From the NCBI GenBank assembly GCA_026397235.1, contig JAPLVG010000021.1, forward strand, positions 1 to 49,417: 49,417 nt of DNA. The letters are read 5' to 3'. This DNA comes from Candidatus Berkelbacteria bacterium. Lineage in GTDB: Bacteria; Patescibacteriota; UBA1384; XYA2-FULL-43-10; CAINNR01. Below are positions 190-6,399 of the stretch, one piece after another; the stretch's first letter is position 1, and every line of letters starts with the position of its first letter. The notes below the pieces were generated by a model. It was not told where the DNA came from and ran no database searches. It worked only from the letters and a program-made list of their open reading frames with translations. A program made the translations under genes and the position numbers.

Positions 190-199
190 ATCTATTTAA

Positions 200-239
200 C
201 AGGGCAAGTGCGCGCTCTACCAACTGAGCTAATGGCCCC
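200..239 (-). pseudogene. 5' fragment of a tRNA (acceptor 5' strand + D-arm, stops around the anticodon)
   Basis: Reverse complement GGGGCCATTAGCTCAGTTGGTAGAGCGCGCACTTGCC has a canonical tRNA 5' half; it runs into the adjacent tRNA-Ala without a 3' half. Confidence 0.55.
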
Positions 240-1433: not shown

Positions 1434-1653
1434 CGTGCTTAGCAACCTTGAAATTTCGAGAGCTTTTTGCTAGTATTATTTATTGTAAGCGGGCATGTAG
1501 CTCTCCGACGCTTTAGGTCGGAGTCCCGACATTATTCAAATCGTCGGGGCAGTTGGTTACCCCAGCACCAGAGCAAAGCTCGGTGCGGGGCAGAGAGCAC
1601 GTCACTGTATACAAGATATAATAATGCCCGCAGGGCGACAAAGCGTAACAAGA

Positions 1654-1765
1654 GTAAATTATTTTTATCATGGGCGTATAGCTCAGCTGGTTAGAGCGCG
1701 TCACTGATAATGACGAGGTCCATGGTTCGAGTCCATGTACGCCCACCATTATAAAAATAATTTAC
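1654..1765. repeat. Perfect 15-bp inverted repeat flanking tRNA-Ile (GTAAATTATTTTTAT / ATAAAAATAATTTAC)
   Basis: 1654-1668 is the exact reverse complement of 1751-1765. Confidence 0.95.
1672..1748 (+). tRNA. tRNA-Ile (GAU), CCA encoded
   Basis: GGGCGTA TA GCTC AGCTGGTTA GAGC G CGTCA CTGATAA TGACG AGGTC CATGG TTCGAGT CCATG TACGCCC A CCA, perfect cloverleaf. Confidence 0.95.
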
Positions 1766-2042
1766 GATTCTAATGACGGGGTCGGAGGTTCGAGTCCTCC
1801 CATGCCCACCACAACGGAAAAATCAAGTTTTCGCTTCCCGTTTTCGCCGAGCTGGCGGACTCGGCGACGAGTTTGTAGGGAGTTTTCGGGATAATTTGCC
1901 ACTTTCGATTTTGAATGGATTTGTAAAAGAAAATTTTTATGAATTTCAATCAGCAATGATTGATTTTTTTGTTGTTCTGTGTTATGTTGCAAGTCGTAAT
2001 GCTTGGTTGGCATTCGAGAAAGAGAAAAGGAGAAAACAGACC

Positions 2043-2498: not shown

Positions 2499-2789
2499 CT
2501 AAAGAAAAATTTGTCTCCAAAGGAGAAATCTGCTTAGATTTCTCTAGTGGTGTAAGTCGCCAAAGAAAAACTTGAAATTGTCAAAGTTCAGAATTCAGTC
2601 GGGAATTTTCGGAAGCTTTTCGCCCAAATTTTTCGGGTCAAAATGCACCGTGCCCCGTAGTAAGCTTTGCTTTACTACTGGGGTTCGAACTATTTCCAGA
2701 ATAGACCACCAAGTTGTGTTAGTAATTTATTGCTGATAGAACTTGGTGAAGATTAGTGACTCGAAAGGCGGAGGCGCGACTGGCGCCGA

Positions 2790-2851
2790 GACGGGGTCGA
2801 GGAATCCCGAAGCATCGGGATATCCGTGACCGAGTCCTCCCATGCCCACCA
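2790..2851 (+). pseudogene. Second copy of the tRNA 3' end, T-arm interrupted by a palindromic insert
   Basis: GACGGGGTCG (2790-2799) and CGAGTCCTCCCATGCCCACCA (2831-2851) are identical to 1775-1784 and 1791-1811; the interval holds ATCCCGAAGCATCGGGAT. Confidence 0.75.
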
Positions 2852-2995: not shown

Positions 2996-3115
2996 CTTAT
3001 CATAACTCGATCTTGCGATCGATTTACATTCGACCCTTGGGCTGATGATTTATATCAGCCTATCTCCTTAGAAAGGAGGTGATCCATCCCCACCTTCCGA
3101 TAGGGATACCTTGTT

Positions 3116-3839
3116 CATGCAAGTCCTACTGTTACCAATAGGCATGGACTATATCTTCATCCTAAGTTCCATTTGCTTCGCTTTTCTTGGATGCCACGAA
3201 TTTACTTTATTCATGAAATCTTTGTGCGAAGTCCTGGAAAGAAAGAAACGCCAGTAGTTATCATCAACTTGTTTACTTGGATTGTGGACTATTCCACATT
3301 TGATTCCAATATCAATCAGATATTTTCTTACCTCTTCCAAGTCAGATTGATTTTTCTGACAAAACTGAAAGTAAAGAAAATGGCGATCATTCTTTGGCAT
3401 ACCACCTTCAGAATCGAAATATCCTCGAATATAAGCTATCTTTTCTGCATCATTCTCAGCATTTCTTTTGATAAATTTTGCAGAAGTTTCGAGAATCCAA
3501 ACGTTTCGCTGTTTTCCTTCTCGGTAGATCCAGCTTTTTGAGCTAAGTCTAGTAAGAATTTCTTTAATCAATTCCAACCACTCAGTTGATGATTGACTAA
3601 AACGAAAAGTTTTATGAATCCGATTGAATGTGGCATCATGAAGAGCTCCCAAAATATACATTTCGAGTTCACTCTTCGTGGTTTTACTTAGGCGTCGACG
3701 TGTAGTCTCTACGGGGTCAAACCGAATACCACTTCGGCCGACTTCCCTCGGTATTGTCCTCATAATATACATTATAAGGGTGTTCACCGATACAGTCGAG
3801 TTTTACTAGCAAATTACTTCGCTAGGTCGCAACAATTTT
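3116..3839 (-). other. Group I-like intron in 16S (between AAGTCGT and AACAAGG)
   Basis: 5' exon ends ..GUCGU; internal guide-like GCGAC just inside the intron pairs with it giving terminal U.G; intron ends in G; conserved group I 3' core AAGATATAGTCC near 3143-3160; LAGLIDADG ORF inside. Confidence 0.8.
3149..3787 (-). CDS. LAGLIDADG homing endonuclease encoded in the 16S intron
   Basis: Two LAGLIDADG-type helices: MYILGALHDATF and AYIRGYFDSEGG; lies in the 16S insertion. Confidence 0.85.
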   Translation of the reverse strand: MNTLIMYIMRTIPREVGRSGIRFDPVETTRRRLSKTTKSELEMYILGALHDATFNRIHKTFRFSQSSTEWLELIKEILTRLSSKSWIYREGKQRNVWILETSAKFIKRNAENDAEKIAYIRGYFDSEGGMPKNDRHFLYFQFCQKNQSDLEEVRKYLIDIGIKCGIVHNPSKQVDDNYWRFFLSRTSHKDFMNKVNSWHPRKAKQMELRMKI

Positions 3840-3923
3840 ACGACTTAGTCCTGATCACCGATCCCACCGTGGTACCCTGTTGGGCACTTAAGATGTTACC
3901 GGCTTTCCTGACTTGACGGGCGG

Positions 3924-4767
3924 ATTGCGATAGATAACGCTTCTTCGCGTTTCCACCGAGCGAGCGGATTTTCCACACTCGGCGGACCCCAAGATTCATT
4001 TTTCTCTTCAATTTTCCGATTTTAGCAATTTGAGTTGCTGTCAATCGGGATTTGTCCCGAACAATTTCTGCGACTTGCCGAAACAGAAGGTAATCATTTT
4101 GTTTTGGCCCTTGCAAAGGATATTTATCAAAAAGCGGAATAAGAGTATTGAAAATATCTCTGCGAGAATTTATCTCAAAACGAAAACACTCCGAATGATT
4201 GGCTCTACTTTCAGACTGATGATATACTGCACCACAACCAAAACTTTCTTTTACTTTATTAAGAAGCTCCAAATGGTCACCTCTTAATTTTAAATAAAAA
4301 TGAAGTTCGACGGTTGACGGTTGAGTACGGCTGTTTACTTCTACTTGGACGAATGTTTACGTAGAAGCAACCTTCACCATCTGTTAAACCAACCAAGTAA
4401 TCAACTGAAAGAATCTTAGGTTTGTCCCTTTGACGCCGCGTCATGACAATATAATATCATCATTTTTCAACGTCTACTATGAACAAGCTGACTTCTTGTC
4501 CTTAAATGCGTTTGCAAAGACAAGATCTCCATGGATCATTTATTACACCGTTTTCTACATCGAGCAACATTTTAATAATATTTTCCCTATGACACAACCA
4601 CCCAAGCATAAGTCAATATTTGTTTACAGAAAGCTCGCTGCAAATTGTCATTAAGCCCTCTAGTCCATTCCTCACGGAGTTGGACCTGCTTTAAACTACG
4701 TCCCGTTGACGAAACGGGGAGTGGATTTGCACCACTTGGCGTAATAAACTGCCATGCGTCTTTAATT
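3924..4767 (-). other. Second intron-like insertion in 16S between CUUGUACAC(A) and CCGCCCGUC
   Basis: Splits the universally conserved TTGTACACACCGCCCGTC; contains remnants of a LAGLIDADG ORF; class not assigned. Confidence 0.8.
3978..4444 (-). pseudogene. LAGLIDADG homing endonuclease, frameshifted
   Basis: Frame 1 from ATG at 4444: MTRRQRDKPKILSVDYLVGLTDGEGCFYVNIRPSRSKQPYSTV; continues in another frame ELHFYLKLRGDHLELLNKVKESFGCG..FRFEINSRRDIFNTLIPLFDKYPLQGPKQNDYLLFRQVAEIV; junction is a 7-bp tandem duplication. 3' end approximate. Confidence 0.8.
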
Positions 4768-5207
4768 TGTGTACAAGACCCGAGAACGTATTCACCGTAG
4801 TATGGCTGACCTACGATTACTAGCGATTCCGACTTCATGAGGGCGAGTTGCAGCCCTCAATCCGAACTGAGGATAGGTTTATGGGATTAGCTTAACATTA
4901 CTGTTTTGCAACCCTTTGTAACTATCCATTGTAACACGAGTGTCGCCCAGGGCGTAAGAGCCACGCTGATCTGACGTCATCCCCACCTTCCTCCGACTTA
5001 ACGCCGGCAGTCCTGTTTGAAAAATTCAACAAACAGCAGGGGTTGCGCTCGTTAACCGACTTAACGGGACACTTCATAGCACGAGCTGACGACGACCGTG
5101 CAGCACCTGTCTTATGGTTCCCTAAGGCACCTTCCAGTTTCTTGGAAGTTCCATAGATGTCAAGCCCTGGTAAGGTTCTTCGCTTAGCATCGAATTAAAC
5201 CTCATGT

Positions 5208-5850: not shown

Positions 5851-5956
5851 ATCGCCTTGGTGAGCCATTACCTCACCAACTAGCTGATAGGAGTAAGGCC
5901 TCTCCCCAAGCGCCCGAAGGCTTTGCTGTACCTCGCTGCCGCTCGGCACGAACACA

Positions 5957-6040
5957 AATGGATGACTAATTTATCCAAATGGCTAATGACGAATTTCTGA
6001 TTTATTAGTTATTCGTTATTTAGACCATTCGTTATCCATT
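5957..6040. repeat. Dispersed palindromic element copy A, inside 16S variable helix
   Basis: AATGGATGACTAATTTATCCAAATGGCTAATGACGAAT...ATTCGTTATTTAGACCATTCGTTATCCATT; matches copies at 6175-6261 and 18806-18882. Confidence 0.85.
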
Positions 6041-6174
6041 GGTGGGTGCTGAACGATAGTGAGGCACAGATTATGCAGGATTACCTAACCTTTCGGCTAG
6101 CTATCCTTCACTCGGGGGTAAGTTCCTTACTATTACTCTCTCGTCTGCCGCTGCTGCGCTTCGCGCAGCTCATG

Positions 6175-6261
6175 AATGGATGACTAATTGTCCAAATAAC
6201 TAATGACTAATATTACGAATTCTCATTCGTTGTTCGTCATTTAGATTATTCGTTATCCATT
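6175..6261. repeat. Dispersed palindromic element copy B, inside 16S variable helix (helix 6 region)
   Basis: AATGGATGACTAATTGTCCAAATAACTAATGACTAAT...TTCGTCATTTAGATTATTCGTTATCCATT. Confidence 0.85.
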
Positions 6262-6399
6262 GCTGGAGCTAAGTGAAACGCAGCGCGCTCGACTTGCATG
6301 TGTTAGGCGCACAGCCAACGTTAATCCTGAGCCAGGATCAAACTCTCAAATAAATGTGAGCTTGAATTAGCTCTAAAATACAAATTCAAAAAAAATTGA

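Follow-up and report, generated by a model that had tools for sequence, protein, structure and literature searches.

In tRNA-dependent lysogeny, which has been shown experimentally for the mycobacteriophage Fionnbharth and others (PMC10865867), integration breaks a tRNA gene and does not restore it. Group I introns are known from the anticodon loops of bacterial tRNA genes (PMC3984707), and archaeal tRNA genes may be interrupted, multi-intron, split or permuted (PMC4090602, PMC3978253). Rickettsia palindromic elements and prokaryotic MITEs are short palindromes dispersed in ORFs and RNA genes (PMC10969869), and tRNA fragments are left by integrative elements (PMC9897764). The locus described here resembles each of these in part: a tRNA-Ile gene is split by three inserts, the largest of which contains a second, complete tRNA-Ile. 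Such a tRNA-in-tRNA arrangement is real and recurrent in the phylum. No earlier report of tRNA-in-tRNA nesting in bacteria was found in the open-access literature, and a tRNA nested in a tRNA of the same type appears to be undescribed so far.

A tRNA-Ile gene split around a second tRNA-Ile(GAU)

The window (the whole stretch of DNA analysed) is the entire contig C26, 49,417 bp long, of a 925-kb draft genome (G000) in 28 contigs that is 99.7% complete. The original prediction, that a tRNA gene at 1491-1811 is split by three inserts and holds a complete tRNA-Ile(GAU) in its anticodon loop, was borne out, with all pieces located (Table 1); inserts of 47, 35 and 163 nt lie between exon pieces of 13, 9, 13 and 41 nt. 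The inverted repeat that brackets the inner tRNA had escaped that prediction. It is near-perfect, and its 15-bp core is the longest perfect complementarity around any of the 44 tRNAs of G000.

Table 1. Parts of the nested tRNA-Ile locus, and a related tRNA-Ile piece, in the window
Feature	Position	Strand	Remarks
Outer tRNA-Ile(GAU) exon piece 1, GGGCATGTAGCTC	1491-1503	+	acceptor 5' strand, D-stem 5' strand; equals G001 tRNA-Ile positions 1-13
Insert 1, double-hairpin palindromic element E1 (TCCGAC..GTCGGAGTCCCGAC..GTCGGGGC)	1504-1550	+	47 nt; D-stem/D-loop junction
Outer tRNA-Ile exon piece 2, D-loop, AGTTGGTTA	1551-1559	+	
Insert 2, hairpin element E2 (CCCCAGCACC..GGTGCGGGGCA)	1560-1594	+	35 nt; D-loop/D-stem junction
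Outer tRNA-Ile exon piece 3, GAGCACGTCACTG	1595-1607	+	D-stem 3' strand, anticodon stem 5' strand, loop CTG
Insert 3 (whole)	1608-1770	+	163 nt; contains inner tRNA-Ile(GAU)
Insert 3 leader module E3 (ATACAAGATATAATAATGCCCGCAGGGCGACAAAGCGTAA, about 1609-1648)	1608-1653	+	
Inverted-repeat left arm flanking inner tRNA (GTAAATTATTTTTATCAT)	1654-1671	+	pairs with 1749-1765; 15-bp perfect core
Inner intact tRNA-Ile(GAU)	1672-1748	+	ARAGORN; Rfam tRNA 73.4 bits
Inverted-repeat right arm (TTATAAAAATAATTTAC)	1749-1765	+	pairs with 1654-1671
Outer tRNA-Ile exon piece 4, TAATGACG...CCCACCA	1771-1811	+	loop 3' part, anticodon stem 3', variable loop, T-arm, acceptor 3', CCA; equals that part of the intact G001 gene
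Second, degenerate tRNA-Ile 3' piece	2789-2851	+	2831-2851 exact duplicate of 1791-1811; hairpin 2803-2830 in T-loop

The intact, uninterrupted homologue that was to be sought in close relatives exists in G001, a genome of the same genus, where a 77-nt tRNA-Ile(GAU) is rRNA-linked, lying between 16S and tRNA-Ala(CGC). The 76 joined nucleotides of the outer gene match it at 76 of 76 positions, and A35, the middle anticodon base, is missing. The gene is split and its anticodon loop is not restored; the intact Ile gene of G002 is 98.7% identical. Because the outer pieces match the intact G001 gene at every position, chance is excluded, and judged by its exons the outer gene is the resident tRNA-Ile(GAU), not Arg or Asn, contrary to the anticodons UCU (Arg) and GUU (Asn) guessed for it earlier.

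Both of those identities were considered and rejected. A sole Asn(GUU) was appealing given that ARAGORN, which lists 44 tRNAs in G000, lacks Asn and Phe, but each of the two has a gene whose anticodon loop holds an ordinary group I intron (C4:44676-45293 for Asn, where the intron contains an ORF, and C15:13231-13525 for Phe), and the orthologue in G001 is an intact Ile gene. Arg(UCU) was rejected given the intact Arg(UCU) at C12:12426. A hidden Phe tRNA at C5:20626 was discarded as a 20-nt chance match within an ORF. With Arg(UCU) intact and Asn and Phe present, there is no requirement for the outer gene to work. For Ile(GAU), G000 has a single canonical gene, which is the inner copy (the other call, C5:36145, scores just 44.5 bits).

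That insert 3 is not an ordinary group I intron had also been anticipated correctly: Rfam gave no RF00028 match in 1608-1770, though the Asn and Phe introns of G000 were detected. Elsewhere in G000, a Pro-like tRNA (C5:35744-35897, L016) has an anticodon-loop insert of ~75 nt without a group I match. Within the window, the 16S 3' part (3061-4768, minus strand) is interrupted by two large inserts, which carry LAGLIDADG ORFs (3152-3787, 3841-4272) and give weak group I matches, and much of this region is collinear with G001. The block at 240-2890, which holds tRNA-Ile between Ala(CGC) and 16S, is inverted relative to G001 and carries different ORFs (330-1433, 1773-2444), without Pfam match.

Palindromic inserts and nested tRNA genes in the phylum

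The three elements are palindromic and dispersed, including within ORFs, as are RPE/MITE-like palindromic mobile elements, the labels of copies as reading-frame or intergenic being assigned by eye. E1-related copies occur at C3:95928, C8:28182, C15:28926 (ORF-like sequence) and C15:16558, the last in a second, broken Val(TAC) tRNA gene, where the element again lies at the D-loop junction and a further copy lies in the T-loop. E2 copies lie at C2:2397 and C17:9289, and the outer Ile of G009 has one (31/33 identical) at the same D-loop spot. E3 has a copy at C8:41093 and directly follows the CTG of the outer tRNA-Ile in G007, with a weaker form in G010; it is rare (3/380 genomes, one of the three intergenic). 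The count of GC-rich hairpins was 69, compared with 4-6 after the sequence was shuffled. Two further palindromic inserts, related to each other but different in kind from E1-E3 and each ~120 nt long, are located in the 16S V1 and V2 loops of the window (5925-6070 and 6152-6286, minus strand) and are absent from G002.

The arrangement is found at further tRNA genes of G000: (i) Thr(CGT) lies between the halves of a second Thr(CGT) (C5:49948-50111, arms TCCAGCCTTTT/AAAAGCTGGA), (ii) Val(CAC) lies within a wrecked tRNA (C1:1914-2130, arms ACCCTGTTAAAT/ATTTAACAGGGT), (iii) Cys(GCA) is enclosed by the two halves of another Cys gene, in whose D-loop there is a hairpin as well (around C15:12340-12533), and (iv) Ala(CGC) and Arg(GCG) are each preceded by a truncated copy. 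In the window, a tRNA 5' half resembling the Ala(CGC) of G003 (192-239, minus strand) stands directly before the intact Ala(CGC) at 114-189; the sequence between them, CCCTGTTAAAT, is found again on C1, where it forms one of the arms that flank Val(CAC).

A survey for an intact tRNA 3' end followed by a second T-arm within 48 nt matched 12/55 genomes in the class and 60/380 across the phylum, while a reversed-pattern control matched 2/380. When a single set of rules was applied throughout, both outer halves were present at 24 of 63 Patescibacteria loci (23 from the survey and one from a named-genome sample) and at 0 of 46 comparable matches from other phyla (Fisher p = 2e-7), which is a contrast and not a frequency estimate, since the two samples were drawn differently. 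The inner tRNAs, situated in the outer anticodon loop or less often the D-loop, include Cys, Ala, Gly, Arg, Thr, Trp, Val, Met, Phe, Ile and others, and a nested Gln is common to G125 and a Kazan bacterium contig. Three-layer loci, with a tRNA in a tRNA in a tRNA, were found for Val in G173 and Thr in G125, and in G249 at least four Thr 3' halves follow one another.

Inner and outer tRNAs share their isoacceptor at every locus whose anticodon loop was legible. Automatic reconstruction with floating junctions gave ambiguous anticodons, and a looser anticodon test (29/56, with ~19 candidate anticodons each) was uninformative and was replaced by a stricter test on 15 plain outers, defined by an uninterrupted D-arm. 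The inner anticodon was readable across the split loop in nine of these 15, compared with a permuted mean of 2.7 and a maximum of 7 in 2000 trials. The remaining outers have altered loops (e.g., CAC instead of CGC in the Ala of G003), and no clear isoacceptor mismatch was seen among the loci read. Most inner/outer pairs differ in the acceptor stem.

Origin of the inner tRNA and fate of the outer gene

The inner Ile of the window is 100% identical to the tRNA-Ile of G009 and of G040, each from another family, and the G040 copy is itself nested in a different outer. It differs from the outer at 13 of 77 positions. Since the inner tRNA is the Ile of other families and the outer follows the species, the two have different histories. 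An intact Ile gene beside 16S is retained in G001, G002 and G004, and so repeated insertion at a fixed spot would be a simpler account of these sequences than repeated precise loss; no 16S lies within the flanks examined around the nested Ile of G007, G009, G010 and G040, whose positional orthology to the rRNA locus is not established. Inner and outer sequences are identical in G007 (Ile) and G297 (Phe), which suggests that there the resident was copied, or gene conversion took place, rather than import.

Outer genes range from perfect to wrecked. At the rRNA locus of G003, which has the same Ile-in-Ile, hairpins occupy the D-arm and the anticodon stem of the outer gene, and a further hairpin takes the place of its T-arm; the outer T-arm is interrupted in G040, the outer of G295 is wrecked, and one family has two Cys-in-Cys loci, at one of which the outer 5' half is gone. 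Among 34 convincing 3' halves, about one third lack a 5' half that can be recognised. Judged by sequence, the wrecked outers (G003, G040, Cys and those missing 5' halves) are dead. About seven plain outers elsewhere are perfect tRNAs, and the window outer has no substitution in 76 nt, against a difference of ~12% between G000 and G001 in nearby 16S-intron sequence. Such perfect or near-perfect outers, including the one in the window, would fit either recent death or function. The earlier alternatives, a tRNA-in-tRNA arrangement with putatively excisable inserts or a tRNA destroyed by palindromic elements, each hold in part: nesting recurs, the palindromes are dispersed and outers are wrecked elsewhere, but the outer is not the Arg or Asn tRNA envisaged.

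Other tRNA 3' ends were observed downstream of intact genes. A repeat, GACTCGAAAGGCGGAGGCGCGACTGGCGCCGAGACGGGGTCGAGG...GTGACCGAGTCC, at 2759-2851 (plus strand) of the window terminates in 20 nt copied from the tRNA-Ile 3' end; it occurs also on C5 before tRNA-Gly(UCC) and in G040 (L049), ending there in G040's own Ile 3' end. It has no Rfam match and is possibly an att-like scar or a structured RNA of a new kind. Met, Gln(CUG) and Gln(UUG) are each followed, ~120-150 bp downstream, by a copy of ~20 nt of a tRNA 3' end (C11:28981, C20:17463 and C28:1741), as if left by very small integrated elements. In G358 (L214), tandem repeats of ~67 bp, each a tRNA-Val(UAC) 3' half with a hairpin spacer, follow the intact gene.

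Candidate explanations and comparison with known systems

The reading that we favour, and hold to be reasonably probable, is that a hairpin-flanked tRNA cassette landed in the resident tRNA-Ile(GAU), inactivated it and replaced it. A hairpin cassette with a complete tRNA-Ile(GAU) between inverted-repeat arms would have inserted into the anticodon loop of the resident and so inactivated it. The inner tRNA, freed from its leader and trailer by the ordinary enzymes of tRNA 5' and 3' processing, would now supply Ile(GAU), and the dead outer gene would then have gathered more hairpins (inserts 1 and 2). On this sequence evidence, the intact inner tRNA-Ile probably does the job of the broken resident. 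The same takeover may have happened many times in the phylum, sometimes serially. Given few or no spare copies of most tRNAs, an insertion would be survivable only with a cargo of the destroyed gene's identity, which would produce the same-isoacceptor rule. We infer a silent outer, a cassette that acts as a mobile unit, such a viability filter and an insertion enzyme; the insert contains no mobility gene, and no excised form was seen. Because the arms differ between loci, one transposon family is insufficient for all cases.

If so, this would be a recurrent replacement route for essential single-copy genes, whereby a newcomer lands in the resident, destroys it and brings the cure. Patescibacteria tRNA genes would be mobile, which would explain patchy tRNA phylogenies, and a hitherto undescribed insertion mechanism aimed at tRNA-gene loops would be revealed. 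For annotation, tRNA fragments and nested copies confuse tRNA counts.

Alternatively, both tRNAs could be made, the insert being an intron that carries a tRNA: hairpin-flanked inserts would be excised and the outer exons joined. The exons are indeed intact here and in the seven or so plain outers, the inserts abut the anticodon loop exactly and without target duplication (e.g., TTTTG^TAAAC, CTG^CAAAA), the hairpin arms would draw the junctions together, and E2 and E3 are found at these outer positions in other families too, as could be the case for an arrangement that is old and has been kept. However, neither the EndA endonuclease (PF01974) nor the RtcB ligase (PF01139) of EndA-type splicing was found in the G000 genome, the insert has no group I match, the window outer lacks one anticodon base, comparable outers are wrecked in G003, G040, G295 and several other G000 tRNAs, and with an intact inner copy of the same isoacceptor there is no need for the outer, all of which renders this reading unlikely. 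The proposal that the inserts are a new class of tRNA-carrying introns, in which one transcript yields both tRNAs through hairpin-guided removal by an undescribed bacterial splicing system, is likewise doubtful. Expression of the outer tRNAs, if it occurs, would imply that bacteria possess a tRNA splicing route, based on protein or RNA, that is new to science.

The locus could also be a collapsed phage or island remnant, in which an integrase cut the anticodon loop, the element brought a tRNA of the same isotype and all else was later lost. Actinobacteriophages follow the same logic, with attachment cores commonly at the anticodon loop (PMC10865867), and the 20-nt 3'-end copies downstream of Ile, Met and two Gln genes in G000 and the tandem 3' halves in G358 would agree with it. 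This origin is nevertheless improbable, as no integrase or phage remains lie between inner and outer, and insert 3 has no gene-sized space. The arms are short inverted repeats flush with the exons and often recurrent palindromes (e.g., CCTGCCCGCC/GGCAGGCGGG), which random decay would not leave, and D-loop cases exist.

Duplication in place, by which the inner tRNA would be a copy of the resident made during repair or replication at a hairpin and not imported, accords with the identical pairs of G007 and G297 and with tandem 5' halves at the Met locus of G125. It is very unlikely for the window, where the two tRNAs differ and the inner one is that of other families, and the acceptor stem differs in most pairs. 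Assembly artefact or chance is scarcely credible, even in a 28-contig draft genome, given independent recurrence in many genomes, including the homologous G003 locus, and a folding z-score of -6.75.

Compared with known systems, the hairpins share with Rickettsia palindromic elements and MITEs the dispersal described above (PMC10969869), but some of them lie in tRNA-gene loops and have an intact tRNA in their own loop. Group I introns use the same insertion site, with true examples in the Asn and Phe genes of G000, whereas the nested inserts have no group I core and carry a tRNA (PMC3984707). The separated halves and paired arms near the junctions recall archaeal tRNA genes, but EndA was not found here and the insert holds a second tRNA of the same isoacceptor (PMC4090602, PMC3978253). 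Integrative elements likewise give partial copies beside intact tRNAs, yet leave one fragment at the far end on a kilobase scale, whereas here two halves enclose an intact copy within ~320 bp (PMC9897764). The logic of tRNA-dependent lysogeny appears, by analogy, to be matched, but without phage or integrase; in that system an entire prophage, complete with integrase and attP, is inserted, while here the insert is ~100-200 nt (PMC10865867). In place of a prophage, one tRNA lies between inverted-repeat arms, wholly inside the target tRNA and sometimes several deep, and this inner Ile(GAU) is of the same isoacceptor as its outer; elsewhere, 9 of 15 readable outers have the anticodon of their inner tRNA.
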